Positions 3,858 to 56,673 of a DNA stretch of 64,000 nt are shown one piece after another. The number at the start of each line of letters is the position of its first letter. Position 1 is the stretch's first letter. Under the pieces are notes generated by a model. The model saw only the letters and a list, made by a program, of their open reading frames with translations, made no database searches and was not told where the DNA came from. The translations under genes were made by a program, and so were the position numbers. The DNA comes from Acidobacteriota bacterium (GTDB taxonomy: Bacteria > Acidobacteriota > Terriglobia > Terriglobales > Acidobacteriaceae), in NCBI GenBank assembly GCA_013288805.1, contig JABDBE010000003.1, positions 1 to 64,000 of the forward strand. Direction: 5' to 3'.

Positions 3858-3921
3858 GAGTGAGTTAGCACCATCCTAAGCCGTGGAGAAAGTCGGGTCA
3901 AACTTTGAAGGGCAGCCTTGC

Positions 3922-4032
3922 GCTTCAGGCTTCAGGCTTTCGGCTTCGGGCTTTCGGTTGCCAGCTTCCAGGTTGGATCTTGTGCTCAGGCGAAGACTGA
4001 TGCCTAACGCCTGAAGCCCGACACCTGAAGCC
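3922..4032. repeat. degenerate 7-bp tandem repeat, inverted pair of arms
   Basis: Left arm GGCTTCA GGCTTTC GGCTTCG GGCTTTC GGTTGCC...; right arm TGATGCC TAACGCC TGAAGCC CGACACC TGAAGCC. Confidence 0.85.
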
Positions 4033-4050
4033 TTCTGCTATATTTCCTCC

Positions 4051-11308: not shown

Positions 11309-11690
11309 TAGGCAGCTGGACCGGACGGTCGCTCTCGGCGCTTCGGCGGCGAGGGAGGAAAGTCCGAACTCCGCAGAGCAGTGTGCCGGATAACGTCCGG
11401 GAAGCCGGGTTCAAGCCCGGTTGACGGCTAGTGCCACAGAGAACATACCGCCTGGTGCATCTTCGGATGCTCGGGGTAAGGGTGAAAAGGTGCGGTAAGA
11501 GCGCACCGCCGCGGCAGTAATGCAGCGGGCAGGGCAAACCCCACACGGAGCAAGACCAAATAGGGAGGGATTCCGAGTTCGCTCGGATCGTGCCGGCTCG
11601 GCGCGTCACAACCTCCGGGTAGGTCGCTTGAGCCCCGCAGTAATGCGTGGCCCAGAGGAATGACCGTCCTGCAGGAGCAATCCCGCAGAC
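11309..11690 (+). ncRNA. rnpB: RNase P RNA (bacterial type A)
   Basis: Diagnostic conserved blocks: GAGGAAAGTCCGAACTCC, GGGTAAGGGTGAAAAGGTGCGGTAAGAGCGCACC, GGCAAACCCC, AGGAATGACCGTCC; ends approximate. Confidence 0.95.
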
Positions 11691-11728
11691 AGAATTCGGC
11701 TTACAGGTCCGGCTGCCACAATTCTTGG

Positions 11729-33491: not shown

Positions 33492-33496
33492 TCTTA

Positions 33497-33531
33497 GCCT
33501 TTAGCACTTAGCAGTTGGCATTCAGCCAAAC
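33497..33531. repeat. degenerate 7-bp repeat arm
   Basis: GCCTTTA GCACTTA GCAGTTG GCATTCA GCCAAAC. Confidence 0.8.
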
Positions 33532-34287: not shown

Positions 34288-35403
34288 CTATTCGTAGGCC
34301 AGCGCGTCAATCGGGTCTTTCTGCGCCGCCTTCAGCGCCGGATAAACCGCCCCCGCAAGGGCTCCAACCAAAGCGATGACAGTCGCGCGTAGAATCCATC
34401 CGACCGTCACCTCGACTCTGATTAGCGGCATCCGATAGATAATTCCTTTCTCGGCAAGCAGGCTGAAAACGATTCCCAAAACGATCCCGGCAATAGCCAG
34501 TAGAGCCGTTTCTCGCAGGATCACGTTGACGATGTAGAGCTTCGACGCGCCCATCGACTTCAAAATTCCGATCTCGCGTGTCCGCTCCATCACTGCCGTG
34601 TACATGGCTTGAAAAATAACGATCAGCCCAATGGTGACGGAAACTCCAATGACGACGTCAATGAAGCTGCCCAGGTAGGGATAGCTGGTCGGCGTCATCA
34701 GCGACAGGTACTCGCGCATGGAGCGGATGTTGTAGCTCTGCATACCTGGGACGGCCTTGATTTCGTCGACGACCGCAGGAGCATTATTGGGATCGTCAAG
34801 CTTGAGATAAAATCCCGATACTTTGCCTTGCGCCCCCATCAGGTTCTGGAGCGTGCTCATGGGGAGGAACTTGCGCGCGCCTCTGCCATGCTCAACGATG
34901 CCCGCGATGCGGAAGGTATTATTGAGGAGTTCAATCGTGTCGCCTACTTTTACTTGCTTCGATTTGGCAAAGACATCATCGACCAGCACATCATTCGGCC
35001 CCTGAAATGGTCCCCCAGCCAGATAGTGAAAGGGTCCGCCCAACTCTTCGAAACTCTTGAGATCGATTCCATAGATGAGCTCCAAAGTTCCGGCAGTCGA
35101 GAACTGCATCACGACTGGTGCCACGCTTGCGACATGGGGCAATTTGGCTAAAATGTCCGCGATCTTGATCGGTAAAGGCGCGCCGGAAACTCCCGCAATG
35201 ACCGTGGACCCCGGAGGCATTACCACAACGTCGGCTCCCATGCCTGCCTGGCGGGCTTTGGAATCGTTCAGAATTCCCAACGATAATCCGACAATCAGCA
35301 GAATGAGCGTTACCTCCAACGCAATCGCCACGATGCTGATCAAGGAGCGGATCGGCCGATGGACCAGGTTGGCGACGATCATTTTATTCATCATAGTGAG
35401 CAC
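34288..35403 (-). CDS. ABC transporter permease (FtsX/MacB-like)
   Basis: 371 aa, MacB periplasmic core plus FtsX TMs (MYTAVMERTREIGILKSMGASKLYIVNVILRETALLAIAG). Confidence 0.88.
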   Translation of the reverse strand: MLTMMNKMIVANLVHRPIRSLISIVAIALEVTLILLIVGLSLGILNDSKARQAGMGADVVVMPPGSTVIAGVSGAPLPIKIADILAKLPHVASVAPVVMQFSTAGTLELIYGIDLKSFEELGGPFHYLAGGPFQGPNDVLVDDVFAKSKQVKVGDTIELLNNTFRIAGIVEHGRGARKFLPMSTLQNLMGAQGKVSGFYLKLDDPNNAPAVVDEIKAVPGMQSYNIRSMREYLSLMTPTSYPYLGSFIDVVIGVSVTIGLIVIFQAMYTAVMERTREIGILKSMGASKLYIVNVILRETALLAIAGIVLGIVFSLLAEKGIIYRMPLIRVEVTVGWILRATVIALVGALAGAVYPALKAAQKDPIDALAYE

Positions 35404-35488
35404 TCAGCACTTAGCAATCAGCAATTAGTCCTTCAACGGTTCGCACAAAGTCCCACCTGCCAAATGCTAAATGCCAATTGCTAATTCT
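35400..35488. repeat. degenerate 7-bp repeat, inverted pair
   Basis: GCACTCA GCACTTA GCAATCA GCAATTA / CAAATGC TAAATGC CAATTGC TAATTCT. Confidence 0.88.
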
Positions 35489-36437
35489 ACCTTTCGCCTT
35501 GAGGCCCGGATGACGATTGCGCCTCCGGCTTATCCAGGTGAACAACCTCGGCGCCTGCCGGCTGCTCCAGTATGAATTTGTCATCCGGAAGCGGTTGGTT
35601 CAAGTCCAGTTTCACGATGTTCAGCGTAATGTCGTACTCTTCCTGCGGTCGCGCAATCTCGATTTGCCAGGGGAAGTCTATGCCATTGTCCTGCTTGTAA
35701 TTTCCGTAAACCGCGTTGGTCGCGACATTTCCCTGTTCGTCATACAGAAGCTGGCGGTGCGGCAGCAAGTCGGTGCGGCTGAAAACGATCTTCCGCGAAA
35801 GCATCCATCCCTTGTTCCCTTTGTGGATCACATCAACAATATAATCCGCGCGCGATACCTTGCGGCTCTTGGCTTCGGTCACCAGTTCGGTGTCGTTTTC
35901 GAGCACCGCAATTTCATTTTCCGGATCAATATGCCGCAACAGGAGCGCGTCATAAATATGTTGTGGACGCAGGTTCTCCAGCGGCTGCGATGGATTGTGG
36001 GTTTCGACATCGTTTCGCCCCACTACGAAACGGTTCTTCGGAGGAATCCATAACTTGAAGCCCTCACCATCGCTCACCATGTCGAAAGCCTTGTTGCGAA
36101 CAATCGGCATCAGTCCAATCATCCGCAGCATGGCCGGCTTGCGCGCCAGCACGTAGCCGCGGATTTCCTCGTAGTCCGTGACCTTGCCCTTCTTAACCCC
36201 GCCCACAGTCGTGTCAATATCGACGGTAGCCTGCATGGACTGAATGCTGCCGGCCTGAGTGTTGATGTAGTCGATGAGTTGCTGTTGCGTGGCAGTTTTT
36301 AGTTGGACAGAAATGAAGGGTGGTTCGACTATACGGGAGCGAAACAGGCAGCCCGTCAGGGGCAGAATTGCCAACAGGATGAAGGCACCACGATATCGAA
36401 AGAAAAAAGACATGAGGCAGCTTTGATTCCGTGCCAA
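35487..36437 (-). CDS. outer-membrane lipoprotein, LolA/LolB-like (DUF4292-like)
   Basis: Lipobox ILPLTGC; SIQSMQATVDID...; DGEGFKLWIPPKNRFVVG. Confidence 0.65.
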   Translation of the reverse strand: MARNQSCLMSFFFRYRGAFILLAILPLTGCLFRSRIVEPPFISVQLKTATQQQLIDYINTQAGSIQSMQATVDIDTTVGGVKKGKVTDYEEIRGYVLARKPAMLRMIGLMPIVRNKAFDMVSDGEGFKLWIPPKNRFVVGRNDVETHNPSQPLENLRPQHIYDALLLRHIDPENEIAVLENDTELVTEAKSRKVSRADYIVDVIHKGNKGWMLSRKIVFSRTDLLPHRQLLYDEQGNVATNAVYGNYKQDNGIDFPWQIEIARPQEEYDITLNIVKLDLNQPLPDDKFILEQPAGAEVVHLDKPEAQSSSGPQGER

Positions 36438-38268: not shown

Positions 38269-38294
38269 CGTACCAATAGTTTAGATGAGAGCCG

Positions 38295-38371
38295 GTCGTG
38301 GGTCGTTGGCCATTGGTCGTTAGCCGTTGGTCACCTTGGGAGGGCAGAGCCAAAGGCCAATTGCTACGGGC
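38295..38371. repeat. degenerate 7-bp repeat, inverted pair
   Basis: GTCGTGG GTCGTTG GCCATTG GTCGTTA GCCGTTG GTCACCT / CAAAGGC CAATTGC TACGGGC. Confidence 0.82.
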
Positions 38372-38903
38372 TATCTCTCGCGTCCATCCAGCTTTGCAGG
38401 ATCAAGACGGCGGCCATCTGATCGACCACTTGTCCCCGCCGCTTGATCGACATTTCAGTTTCGCGCAGCAGACGGTTGGCTTGGGCTGAGCTCAAGCGTT
38501 CGTCCCAGAGGTGAATCGGCAAGGGAAAACGCTGACGTAGCTCTTCTGCGAAGCGTTGCATCTTCTCAGCTTGGATGCCTTCAGCCCCGCTCATGCGCAG
38601 CGGGTAGCCCACGACGATCTCGGTCACCTCGTATTCGCGGATCACCTTTTCCAGTTGGGCGAAATCCAGGCGCTTGTTTTGTCGCTGGATGGTTTCGAGT
38701 CCCTGCGCAGTAATGCCGAGGGGGTCCGATATGGCAAGGCCGATCCGCTTGGACCCAACGTCTAAACCTAGAACTCGGGCCAGACTACGCGGCCCCAAGC
38801 CGTTCTGGGACTGGGTTGGTTCAGAGGGCACGTGCGCATTATAAGTCCCGATGAAATAGCCAAGAAATGGATTACGATGCTGAAATGGCGACCGGCGAAG
38901 CAC
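38364..38903 (-). CDS. ruvX: Holliday junction resolvase RuvX/YqgF
   Basis: VLGLDVGSKRIGLAISDPLG; IVVGYPLRMSG; LWDERLSSAQANRLL; true start probably downstream of ORF start. Confidence 0.93.
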   Translation of the reverse strand: MLRRSPFQHRNPFLGYFIGTYNAHVPSEPTQSQNGLGPRSLARVLGLDVGSKRIGLAISDPLGITAQGLETIQRQNKRLDFAQLEKVIREYEVTEIVVGYPLRMSGAEGIQAEKMQRFAEELRQRFPLPIHLWDERLSSAQANRLLRETEMSIKRRGQVVDQMAAVLILQSWMDARDSP

Positions 38904-52129: not shown

Positions 52130-55100
52130 ATGACAATGCGGAAGTTCGTCTCGCTATTGGTCATAGTGCTGGGATTAAACACCTTCGGCTTTAGCCAAGG
52201 CGCGACTACGGGCGACCTTCGGGTTACCGTGAAAGATCCCAAGGGCAGTCTGGTCACCAACGCCACGGTTACGGCGCAAGATCAGGCCAAGGGATTAGAG
52301 CGCTCGGTAACCGGGAACGGCCAGGGCGACTACCGCATCGTATTGTTACCGCCGGGGACTTATCAGCTGACGGTCGAAGCCCCGGGCTTCGCGAAGACAA
52401 CGGTTGAGAATGTGAGCATCACGGTGGGCCAAGTGGTGGACTTGCCTGTCGCAGTCTCAGTTGCCGGCGCCCAGGAAGTGGTCAACGTTAGTTCCGCCGC
52501 CGAACTGATCGAAACGAGCCGCACTTCGACCACCGACACTATCGGGCAGCGGAGCATCGATAACCTTCCCATCAACGGGCGCAACTACATTAACTTTGCG
52601 CTGACGGATTCGCAGGTGTTGCGCGACAACGCTCCGGCTACGGGCGCGGCTCCGACGTCTGGGCTGAACATTAGCGGACAACGGGCGCGTGCAAATCTGG
52701 TAAATGTGGACGGTGCGGACGCGACCGACAACTCAACCAACGGTGTGCGTTCGACGGTTTCGCAGGAAGCGGTGCAGGAATTCCAGATCATCACCAACAG
52801 TTATGTCGCGGAATACGGACGTGCCACAGGCGGCGTGATCAACATCATTACGCGTTCCGGATCGAACGATTTTCACGGCGACGTATATGGCTATCTTCGT
52901 GATCGCGACTTTCAGGCGGTCAATCCGTTTAGCACCACGCCCAACCCGGCCTATACGCGGGTGCAGGCTGGAACGGCGTTTGGTGGACCGATCAAGAAGG
53001 ACAAAACATATTTCTACTTCGCTTACGAGATTACGCGACGGCATGAGACGGGATTTTCCAGCATCGGGCAGAACAATTTCGGATTCGTTCCGTTCGACGC
53101 GTCTCCGTTCTTCGGGGCTCCGGCGGGAACTTTCGACATCCAAGCCACGCCGCAGCAGGCGGCATTTTTGCAAAGCTTTATACCGGTGGTTCCGGCGGGG
53201 CTATTGCCGACACTACAGACTTATGCGTTTATGGCGGGCGCGTCTTCTGGCATCGCGCTCAACGGGAAATATCCCGCTTCATTTGCCCTGCTTCCGCCAG
53301 CCTTTGTGCCTGCGGGATTGCAACAGTTTCCTTCCACCTGCAATCCGGCGTTTGGCGTAGCCGGAGGCTTCGTACCGGTTTGCGCCGGGTTGCCAGCTTC
53401 GTTTCAGACGCTGGCCTCGCAGGTGGGAAACTTCCCGGTTTTCGAAGGAACCAGCCTGTATTCGTTGCGTCTCGATCACAACATCACTAGCAACAATCGG
53501 CTCATGCTGCGGGCGAACGTCAGTCCGAGCACGGTCACCGGTATTGAGGTAAATGGCGAGAACCAGGTATTCGGTCAGAATTCTTACTCCCGAACTTCGC
53601 AGCAGACCTACCGCGATGTCACAGGGGTGGCGCAGGATACATGGACGATCGGGAACAACAAGGTGAATGAATTCCGCTTCCAATTCGCCCGACGCGGACT
53701 GCTGTACAACTATTCCAGCGCACCGGGGGGATCGGATGTCGCGGTAGACATTCCGGGCTATGCTTTCTTCGGGCGCGAGCCTTACTCCTACATTGACCGG
53801 GTGGAAAAGCGTTACCAGTTCACCGACAACTTCTCGTGGACGCTGGGACGGCACGATACGAAGTTCGGAGTGGATTTTAATTACATTCCGATTACAGCCA
53901 CTTTCACGGTGAACTACGGTGGGGTTTACGATTTTGGCAGCCTCAGCCTTTTTCCAGCGCCTTTCCCGAGCTTCTCTCCGGTGCAAGGATACGGCTTAGG
54001 AATTCCTCAGGATTTTATTCAAGGCATTGGCAATCCTAGCGATTCTTTCTCGAACAAACCTTTGGGCGTGTACTGGCAGGATTCGTGGCGAGCCAAGCCG
54101 AACCTGACCTTCAACTACGGGCTGCGATATGACATCGAGTTCCCGCCCCAGTTCTCGCAGCCGACTGCTCTTGCGCTGTCGGGTTACAACCAACTCGGCC
54201 TGCAGAAAGGCATTCAGACGGATACCCATATGTTCCAGCCGCGCATTGGGATGGCATGGGATCCGAAGGGTGATGGGAAGACTGTCGTCCGGGCGAACTT
54301 TGGCATATTTTATGACCATCCTCTGCTCGGGCTGTACTTCCTGGGCGATGCTTCGGACGGTTCGAAGAGCGGACAATTGTTGTTTTTCGGGGGCACGCCG
54401 GGATGCAACCCTGCGGCTCCGCCACTCAGCATGACGGCAAACAATATTTTTCAGGGCATTGCGGGAACGTGTTTTCCGGCGGCCGTATCCGCGTTCGGAT
54501 ATCAGGCCAGCCAGCAACGCTTCAACTCGTTCGATCCGACGTCGCTATTCATCAATCAGGGATACCTGACGAACGGAGTGCCGCTGGTGTCGCAGCCGTT
54601 CGGCTATCCACAGGCGAAGGGTTTCGTGTATCCCTATTCGCAGCAGGCGAACTTTACGGTGGAGCGCGATTTGGGCGGCGGCTTCGCGCTGAGTCTGGCT
54701 TATAACTGGAACGGCGGACGACATCTTAACCGTCCGATTAACGCCAACACTGCGCGTGGTGATTTGCTGACGTCGAATTGGCAGGCTGCAGTGGCGACGG
54801 GGGCGGCAGCGTCGACGGACAGCCCATTGGCGGTAGCGTCGTGCGGCGTGAACCCGATTCCGGGATCGAAGCTGCCTTATTACGTTCCCGCCGCTTTGGT
54901 CAGCTTCTTCCGGCCCTCGGGACTGAATCCGTCGCTGGCGGGCGGGCCGTTTGCGCCGTGCATTCCGCTGGCGTTGGCGGATTTGGCAGCAACCGGGCTG
55001 AACACAGGGTGCAACCCCGGCGTTTCTGGACTGGCAAATTGCGTGCCGTTCAGTGATATGGACGCGAACTATTCGAATGGCAGTTCGAACTACAACGGAT

Positions 55101-55828
55101 TCACGGCGAATTTGCGCAAGAGATTCTTGCGGCACTATCAATTCCTGGCGTCTTATACCTGGTCGCATTCGATTGACGACTCGACCGATTTGCAGTCGCC
55201 GCTGGCGCCGCAGGATAGCTACTACCCTAATCTGGAGCGGTCGAACTCTTTGTTTGACCAGCGGCATCGATTTGTTTTCAGCGGCGTGTACGAGAGTGGG
55301 AAGCTTAGCGGGGATAGCTTCGCCGATCGATTCTTCAGCAACTGGACGGTCGCGCCGATCCTTGAAGTCGGCTCTGGGCGGCCTTTTAACATCCTGACCG
55401 GAACCAGCGACAATCTGCAGTTTGACCCCAGCGGCAGCCGTCCGAATGTGGTCGCGGCGGGAACTCCGACGAACGCGTGCGGTTATCCTACGGTTGCTTC
55501 CAAGTATTCGCCCAGCGGTTTTCTTCAAGAAGTATGTTTTGCCGACCTCACGCCGGCGCAACTGGCTTCTCCGAATGCGCTACTCCTGCTGGATGGTACT
55601 TTGGGCCGCAATGCTGGATTCCAGCCGTGGACTGTGTTCAACGATTTGCGGATCGCGCGGCGGATTTATTTTGGCGAACGGGTGAATCTCGACCTCATTG
55701 TGGATATGTTCAATCTCGCGAACAAGAACAACGTGGCCGCCGTCAACGAGCTATATACCAATGCGGGGCAGCCGACGGCGGCTTACGATCCCAGGCAGTT
55801 TCAGTTCGCCATGAAAGTGAATTGGTGA
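52130..55828 (+). CDS. TonB-dependent receptor with N-terminal carboxypeptidase-regulatory-like domain
   Basis: 1232 aa; GDLRVTVKDPKGSLVTNATVTAQ; SIDNLPINGRNYINF; EYGRATGGVINIITRSGSNDFHG. Confidence 0.92.
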   Translation: MTMRKFVSLLVIVLGLNTFGFSQGATTGDLRVTVKDPKGSLVTNATVTAQDQAKGLERSVTGNGQGDYRIVLLPPGTYQLTVEAPGFAKTTVENVSITVGQVVDLPVAVSVAGAQEVVNVSSAAELIETSRTSTTDTIGQRSIDNLPINGRNYINFALTDSQVLRDNAPATGAAPTSGLNISGQRARANLVNVDGADATDNSTNGVRSTVSQEAVQEFQIITNSYVAEYGRATGGVINIITRSGSNDFHGDVYGYLRDRDFQAVNPFSTTPNPAYTRVQAGTAFGGPIKKDKTYFYFAYEITRRHETGFSSIGQNNFGFVPFDASPFFGAPAGTFDIQATPQQAAFLQSFIPVVPAGLLPTLQTYAFMAGASSGIALNGKYPASFALLPPAFVPAGLQQFPSTCNPAFGVAGGFVPVCAGLPASFQTLASQVGNFPVFEGTSLYSLRLDHNITSNNRLMLRANVSPSTVTGIEVNGENQVFGQNSYSRTSQQTYRDVTGVAQDTWTIGNNKVNEFRFQFARRGLLYNYSSAPGGSDVAVDIPGYAFFGREPYSYIDRVEKRYQFTDNFSWTLGRHDTKFGVDFNYIPITATFTVNYGGVYDFGSLSLFPAPFPSFSPVQGYGLGIPQDFIQGIGNPSDSFSNKPLGVYWQDSWRAKPNLTFNYGLRYDIEFPPQFSQPTALALSGYNQLGLQKGIQTDTHMFQPRIGMAWDPKGDGKTVVRANFGIFYDHPLLGLYFLGDASDGSKSGQLLFFGGTPGCNPAAPPLSMTANNIFQGIAGTCFPAAVSAFGYQASQQRFNSFDPTSLFINQGYLTNGVPLVSQPFGYPQAKGFVYPYSQQANFTVERDLGGGFALSLAYNWNGGRHLNRPINANTARGDLLTSNWQAAVATGAAASTDSPLAVASCGVNPIPGSKLPYYVPAALVSFFRPSGLNPSLAGGPFAPCIPLALADLAATGLNTGCNPGVSGLANCVPFSDMDANYSNGSSNYNGFTANLRKRFLRHYQFLASYTWSHSIDDSTDLQSPLAPQDSYYPNLERSNSLFDQRHRFVFSGVYESGKLSGDSFADRFFSNWTVAPILEVGSGRPFNILTGTSDNLQFDPSGSRPNVVAAGTPTNACGYPTVASKYSPSGFLQEVCFADLTPAQLASPNALLLLDGTLGRNAGFQPWTVFNDLRIARRIYFGERVNLDLIVDMFNLANKNNVAAVNELYTNAGQPTAAYDPRQFQFAMKVNW

Positions 55829-55833
55829 AAGGA

Positions 55834-55958
55834 GCATTCAGCCGTCAGCATTCAGCACTCAGCCTTGTGGGCCGACTGCGTCCGCCGGGGGCGCGGATTA
55901 AGGTAGCTGGAACAGGTTTCTTGGTTTGACTGATTGCTGAGTGCTGACGGCTGATAGC
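55834..55958. repeat. degenerate 7-bp repeat, inverted pair
   Basis: GCATTCA GCCGTCA GCATTCA GCACTCA / TGATTGC TGAGTGC TGACGGC TGATAGC. Confidence 0.9.
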
Positions 55959-56013
55959 TAACCCCTCTGCTACACTTTCTCCATCCTTCGCGATTGCCGG
56001 GAGCTTTTCCTGA

Positions 56014-56673
56014 ATGTCACAACCCTCTGCTTCAAGCGCGCGGACGCGCCTTGTCCGCGAAGCTGATCGTGCGGTTTACGATCGGGGCGCTGCTTACAAA
56101 ATTCTCGATGAAGGTTTCATTTGCCACGTGGGATTCGTGGTGGATGGGCAACCCTTTGTGATTCCGACCGGGTACGGCCGCGTGGGCGACAATTTATATA
56201 TCCACGGATCGGCAGCGAGCCGGATGCTGCGTCGCGTCAATGAGGGTATCGCAGTTTGCGTCACGGTTACGCTGCTGGATGGACTGGTGCTGGCGCGATC
56301 GATTTTCAATCACTCGATGAATTACCGGTCCGTCGTGATTCTGGGAGCTGCTCGGGCGGTAACAGATCCTAAAGAAAAGCTGGAGGCTCTGCGGCTCTTG
56401 TCGGAGCACATTCTGCCGGGTCGCTGGGTGGAGTCTCGCCAGCCCAATGAAAAAGAGCTGAAGGCTACTTCGGTACTGCGCCTGCCGATCGAGGAGTTCT
56501 CTGCGAAGGTGCGACAAGGGCCGGTTGTGGATGATGAAGAGGATTACGCGTTTTCAACTTGGGCAGGAGTTATTCCGCTGGAGATGGTGGCGGGGCAGCC
56601 GATTGATGATGAGCGACTCATGCCGGGTGTAAGAGTGCCGGAATACGCGCGGGGGTATACTCGCAAGCGCTGA
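56014..56673 (+). CDS. pyridoxamine 5'-phosphate oxidase family protein
   Basis: YKILDEGFICHVGFVVDGQPFVIPTGYGRVGDNLYIHGS. Confidence 0.88.
   Translation: MSQPSASSARTRLVREADRAVYDRGAAYKILDEGFICHVGFVVDGQPFVIPTGYGRVGDNLYIHGSAASRMLRRVNEGIAVCVTVTLLDGLVLARSIFNHSMNYRSVVILGAARAVTDPKEKLEALRLLSEHILPGRWVESRQPNEKELKATSVLRLPIEEFSAKVRQGPVVDDEEDYAFSTWAGVIPLEMVAGQPIDDERLMPGVRVPEYARGYTRKR

Follow-up and report, generated by a model that had tools for sequence, protein, structure and literature searches.

The heptamer hairpin behind a TonB-dependent receptor gene of an Acidobacteriota bacterium probably belongs to a dispersed family of palindromic DNA repeats

The closest known counterparts of the element described here are the inverted GGGAATC heptamer pairs of Xanthomonas and, by location, the REPs. 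The Xanthomonas repeats, GGGAATC or (GGGANTN)n, comprise about four units, are 89-93% intergenic and lie on average 28 nt behind the upstream ORF (Rehm et al. 2015, PMC4692102). Each genome carries 70-75 inverted pairs in convergent orientation, the prominent repeats stand at different genes in two species, and the G-rich units form quadruplexes (PMC4692102). REPs of the GTAG and CGTC families are intergenic, lie behind stop codons in convergent and unidirectional gaps, and supply the TAG stop (PMC3733652). The TAACTGA direct repeats of Beggiatoaceae, Cyanobacteria and Bacteroidetes consist of one constant unit and lie mostly just upstream of start codons, with one indirect repeat noted (PMC4679880). 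The cyanobacterial STRR heptanucleotides (Calothrix), as cited in PMC4692102, are tandem heptamers with several families per genome, and the description given there includes no paired inverted arrays at gene ends. According to MacGregor (PMC4679880), Mrazek et al. (2007) described heptamers as the commonest class of repeat in the majority of genomes and ascribed them to polymerase slippage. No literature on such repeats in Acidobacteriota was found.

The window analysed here is a 64-kb stretch of DNA from an Acidobacteriota bacterium (contig JABDBE010000003.1, positions 1 to 64,000). Gene content points to this phylum, as do the Acidobacteria and Terriglobia records among the named matches. 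A first-pass annotation of the window had placed a long heptamer hairpin between two genes on the same strand, encoding a TonB-dependent receptor and a PNPOx-family protein. The arms were found where they had been placed, the hairpin between the two genes is supported, and the gene identities agree with those proposed. The locus is organized as follows.

52130-55828, + strand: upstream gene, TonB-receptor-type outer-membrane beta-barrel (PF25183, PF13620, PF00593)
55833-55863, + strand: 5' arm, tandem heptamers AGCATTC-AGCCGTC-AGCATTC-AGCACTC-AGC, starting 4 nt past the upstream stop codon
55864-55929: loop between the heptamer arms
55930-55959, + strand: 3' arm, inverted heptamers CTGATTG-CTGAGTG-CTGACGG-CTGATAG-CT, the 5'-arm motif reversed
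55968-55976, + strand: TGCTACACT, extended -10-like motif of the Pyridox_ox_2 gene, its bases largely conserved in relatives
56014-56673, + strand: downstream gene, Pyridox_ox_2 (PNPOx-like), by domain match

The arms (55833-55862 and 55930-55959) are 30 nt each, 87% complementary and 67 nt apart. The 145-nt region that includes the hairpin folds at -71.8 kcal/mol, compared with -50.8 +/- 4.1 kcal/mol for 200 dinucleotide shuffles (z -5.1), none of which folds as well. The antisense DNA strand folds comparably (z -4.5). The hairpin is an automatic consequence of the arrays standing inverted. No match to an intrinsic terminator (a GC-rich stem followed by a T-run) was found in the loop or the surroundings, no T-run follows the hairpin, and the hairpin fits no curated covariance model in an Rfam scan of the window, where RNase P was the sole match. 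Neither end of the element carries a GTAG or CGTC tag, and the unit TCAGCNN contains no G-run and hence lacks G-quadruplex potential. A stretch of 8 nt separates the 3' arm from TGCTACACT, a putative promoter element of the Pyridox_ox_2 gene in which CTG.TA is invariant in seven aligned sequences; a sigma-70 promoter scan made no call there.

The arms had further been described as pairing unit by unit in register with compensatory or wobble changes. GCCGTCA and TGACGGC do match fully, but this holds for only one unit of the four. Across the arms 4 of the 8 free NN nucleotides are matched, with one full match (CG/CG), two units matched at one of two positions, and one matched at neither (AT/TA). 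When whole-dinucleotide NN matches within loci, taken in the best register, were compared with those obtained after swapping right arms between loci, p was 0.20 in this bacterium's own genome, 0.95 in genus g37, 0.24 across many phyla and 0.32 in a fourth set. Scored per nucleotide, the match reached p 0.03 in the own genome and 0.34-0.89 in the other sets. Compensatory pairing of individual units is therefore rejected, as the NN match is no better than the cross-locus control in most sets. Selection on an RNA helix predicts G-U mismatches above A-C. The trend on the sense strand is the opposite, with 101 A-C versus 71 G-U in 98 bacterial hairpins between co-directional genes and 102 versus 61 in an independent set of 96 tandem-context hairpins from viral contigs, which rules against a wobble preference on the transcript. 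The A-C excess in both sets possibly reflects a strand-biased mutation pattern. "Compensatory or wobble changes" is an interpretation rather than an observation. The arms pair because two arrays of one motif face opposite ways: all units share (T/C)(A/G)GCNNT, so any two opposite-facing arrays pair at 5 of 7 positions. It appears from these comparisons that the constant unit positions are conserved and the pairing of individual units is not.

Two outcomes had been named as refuting the proposal, a lack of conserved pairing in relatives and a folding energy no better than that of shuffled controls. The first is seen, since the element is absent from the TonB/PNPOx gap of relatives that retain both genes; the second is not. 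In several relatives that have both genes as well as the downstream motif, the gap holds ordinary terminator-like hairpins (of canonical form in G338, G210 and G346) or different sequence. Another four relatives carry unrelated arrays of heptamers ahead of the PNPOx gene. Palindromes or repeats of a different design, dispersed and imperfect, occur in the own genome and a relative (TCATCCCGAGC..., CACGGATTTCACGGAT, CACCACGGACACACAGAG and CACAAAGGACACTAAGG; sites L183 11816-11898, L185 19404-19489, L188 16571-16681 and the L236 upstream gap), and one of these occupies the same TonB/PNPOx gap in G334. As an RNA structure, the hairpin at 55833-55959 is not specially conserved.

The window contains at least four hairpins built of heptamers. 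The other copies, a lone array and the RNase P match are listed here.

3915-4034: second heptamer hairpin, unit family GGCTTCA/GGCTTYG, fold z -3.1
11313-11719, + strand: RNase P RNA, bacterial class A (Rfam RF00010, 291 bits)
33492-33526, + strand: lone heptamer array AGCCTTT-AGCACTT-AGCAGTT-GGCATTC, without a near partner
35394-35489: third heptamer hairpin, unit family AGCNNTY, weak fold (z -1.4)
38291-38373: fourth heptamer hairpin, left arm of the GGTCGTT family, right arm mixed, weak fold (z -1.35)

Periodic runs in the window number 11 at lag 7 and 0-4 at lags 4-6 and 8-11. Across 461 kb of the own genome there are 60 runs at lag 7 versus 2-22 at lags 4-6 and 8-13, with the double lag of 14 ranking second; 400 kb of this sample were picked around hits, so the densities are upper values while the contrast between periods is less affected. 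In the same 461 kb, 11 of the 15 inverted repeats with arms of at least 20 bp are heptamer-periodic and none is periodic at lags 4-6 or 8-13. In the assembly of this genome (3.5 Mb in 203 contigs, about half-complete), AGCNNTCAGCNNTCAGC has 44 exact matches on both strands together, a number that rises to 100 when one mismatch is allowed, compared with 0 and 4 for the reversed control. Several unit families coexist in it, and unit families are genome-specific. The heptamer-hairpin design is patchy in Acidobacteriota and occurs in many other phyla as well.

The unit in the own genome is the degenerate motif (T/C)(A/G)GCNNT, and an unsupervised phase model yields T-Y-R-G-Y-N-N. Inspection of the consensus in two relatives shows that it, too, agrees with the generic unit YRGNNNY. 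In runs found without use of a motif, mismatches between successive units are clustered in two of the seven phases (z 13.1, 12.1, 5.1 and 4.7 in four genomes), and z for the same clustering in the two richest genomes is about 0-2 when lag 9 or 14 is taken. Arrays thus retain certain positions and leave others free. At the free positions a unit agrees with its neighbour no more often than with a unit drawn at random from the pool (0.10 versus 0.13 in the own genome). Sharing of NN was higher between units two apart than between adjacent ones in g37 (0.45 versus 0.28, a value that takes in orthologues) and in the named genomes (0.20 versus 0.14), a hint of 14-bp duplication steps.

The arms have a fixed polarity. 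The YRG arm is the 5' arm in 14 of 14 pairs from the own genome and in 26 of 27 from named genomes (Nitrospira, Planctomycetota, Cyanobacteria, KSB1 and others). When both polarities were sought in 20 genomes, 15 had only YRG at the 5' side, two (G242 and G029) had only the opposite, and none had both. The median distance from the element end to the stop codon is 6 nt, with 123 of 164 ends between -15 and 30 nt. Gene contexts, taken from a home-made ORF caller, are tandem for 98 of 147 intergenic elements, convergent for 33 and divergent for 16, and of the intergenic background in four genomes 10-14% lies between convergent and 21-31% between divergent genes; convergent gaps are over-represented among the elements and divergent gaps under-represented. 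TAG is the stop at 42 of 83 array edges versus about 35% of all genes. Arrays without a partner face either way, the sense ones mostly right behind the stop codon and the antisense ones mostly further down. A sense-only array of the 3'-UTR is unsupported, as this placement fits the arms of a gap-filling pair. Nor do the heptamer arms generally wrap terminators; they do so at one locus of g37, where 7 of 23 elements have a terminator-like loop, compared with 0 of 17 in the own genome.

Turnover of the arrays could be followed in genus g37 at two orthologous convergent gaps, each in about 30 species. One set of species has AGCTNTC hairpins at these gaps, with the number of units varying. GGGCTRT heptamers occupy the first gap in G363 and G360, and a full GGGCTRT hairpin is found at the second gap in G363, where G370 and G368 have GGCTTCT heptamers. 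The other g37 species have no clear arrays at the two gaps. Of the features of a MITE, which are fixed terminal inverted repeats with target-site duplication, constant ends were not seen at the gaps. At one of them the arms flank a conserved bidirectional terminator, which makes arrival as one block unlikely. At locus B of G190 (L341) one arm is a long run of identical GAGAGCT units and the other has about four units; the arms change length independently.

The same heptamer hairpins are found on IMG/VR contigs. The 34-kb tailed-phage contig IMGVR_UViG_3300045936_000120, which encodes terminase, portal, capsid, adaptor and tape-measure proteins, carries about 17 of them, nearly all in or at gene junctions. 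In phage relatives with proteins 60-90% similar, several of these junctions overlap or span few bases; in one example a hairpin-filled gap of 117 nt corresponds to a 1-nt overlap. This comparison indicates that arrays can be gained in number without gene loss. Many junctions of the contig have hairpins or lone arrays where the genes of related phages often overlap or nearly do. The cores between the arms share more 6-mers within than between genomes (0.26 versus 0.13, p 0.003, mostly from the phage), which lends modest support to copying. Direct evidence for copying of whole elements, as near-identical copies at new sites, is weak.

The heptamer hairpins are a variant of the known bacterial heptamer repeats, and the Xanthomonas type is nearest. 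They have in common with it tandem units of 7 bp in which some positions are fixed and others free, a dispersed and mostly intergenic location near the end of the upstream ORF, and inverted pairs in convergent orientation; GGGAATC itself fits the generic YRGNNNY in the rotation CGGGAAT. Unlike GGGAATC, TCAGCNN has no G-runs, several unit families share a genome, and the design extends across phyla and to phages. The TAACTGA repeats are likewise abundant intergenic heptamer arrays with a patchy distribution across phyla, and the reverse complement of TAACTGA fits YRGNNNY, but they are direct repeats before starts rather than inverted pairs at gene ends. With REPs the elements share palindromic structure, dispersal, a position after stop codons, convergent and unidirectional enrichment, and TAG stops, but they have no tag tetranucleotide, are built from a variable number of tandem heptamers instead of a tagged palindrome of 20-40 bp, and are numerous in several genomes without RAYT.

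Based on these comparisons, the hairpin at 55833-55959 probably belongs to a dispersed and rapidly evolving family of palindromic DNA repeats, the members of which would best be read as REP-like 3'-end repeats. This reading takes in the genome-wide dispersal, the phase-fixed free positions, the polarity, the 3'-end location, the turnover and the phage junctions. Two opposite-facing arrays of degenerate heptamers with fixed polarity occupy the gap behind the stop codon of a gene. The number of units would rise and fall by slippage, and copying or insertion at gene junctions would supply new elements. Elements may be tolerated or kept after stop codons, where a hairpin harms no gene. The least certain step, somewhat doubtful in itself, is a role at the mRNA level, in which a hairpin in this place might shield or delimit the upstream transcript, as proposed for REPs; the lack of a G-U preference weakens this step. 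A protein that recognizes the fixed positions is a possible alternative, and no trans-acting enzyme for the arrays was found. It is possible, though doubtful, that the elements constitute a distinct repeat class of bacteria and phages, a palindrome of degenerate heptamers whose arm polarity is single, and whose unit families are particular, to each genome and that is gained at stop codons and gene junctions, including those of overlapping phage genes, through a putative factor writing or recognizing YRGNNNY every 7 bp and leaving the other positions free.

Other explanations account for part of these features. Plain slippage, in which heptamer microsatellites expand neutrally through a property of the polymerase (Mrazek et al. 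2007, as given in PMC4679880), would fit the dominance of period 7, the variable array lengths, the long run of identical units in the G190 arm and the homogeneous arrays (e.g., AGCACTC) of some genomes. Decay of slipped copies would strike all phases equally, however, and the mismatches are confined to fixed phases, so neutral decay is insufficient. Adjacent units are moreover no more alike in NN than random ones while the other positions are kept, and inverted pairing, fixed polarity and stop-codon placement are left unexplained, which makes slippage as the whole account unlikely. A functional RNA hairpin of this gene pair, a terminator or 3' stabilizer kept by compensatory change, is less likely again. 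The strong predicted fold would suit it, as would the position between the receptor stop codon and the conserved -10-like motif of the next gene and the terminator-like hairpins in the same gap of three relatives, but the NN match, which is not above control in most sets, the mismatch data, the absence of the element from that gap in relatives, the lack of a T-run or terminator match, and the z values of only -1.4, -3.1 and -1.35 for the three sister hairpins speak against it, and in its conserved-structure form it is largely refuted. Least probable, and very unlikely, is a REP/BIME-type element moved by a RAYT (Y1) transposase. Its appeal lies in the REP-like distribution (PMC3733652) and the excess of TAG stops at array edges; the palindrome is nevertheless one of tandem, untagged heptamers, and the genomes in which Y1_Tnp was matched do not include the element-rich g37 genomes G065, G106, G133, G142, G150 and G190. 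RAYT is therefore not needed, and an association with it is rejected for this genus. The half-complete own genome has two Y1_Tnp matches, of unassigned type.

The excess of heptamers among bacterial repeats has been known since 2007 without a mechanism. Constraints on such a mechanism are now testable, namely the free positions, the polarity held within each genome, the placement at stop codons, the replacement of one unit family by another at orthologous sites, and the occupation of gene junctions in the phage. Slippage alone does not account for these constraints, and RNA pairing is not the conserved trait. If a trans-acting factor exists, it would be traceable by comparing element-rich with element-poor sister species of g37, or the phage with its relatives.
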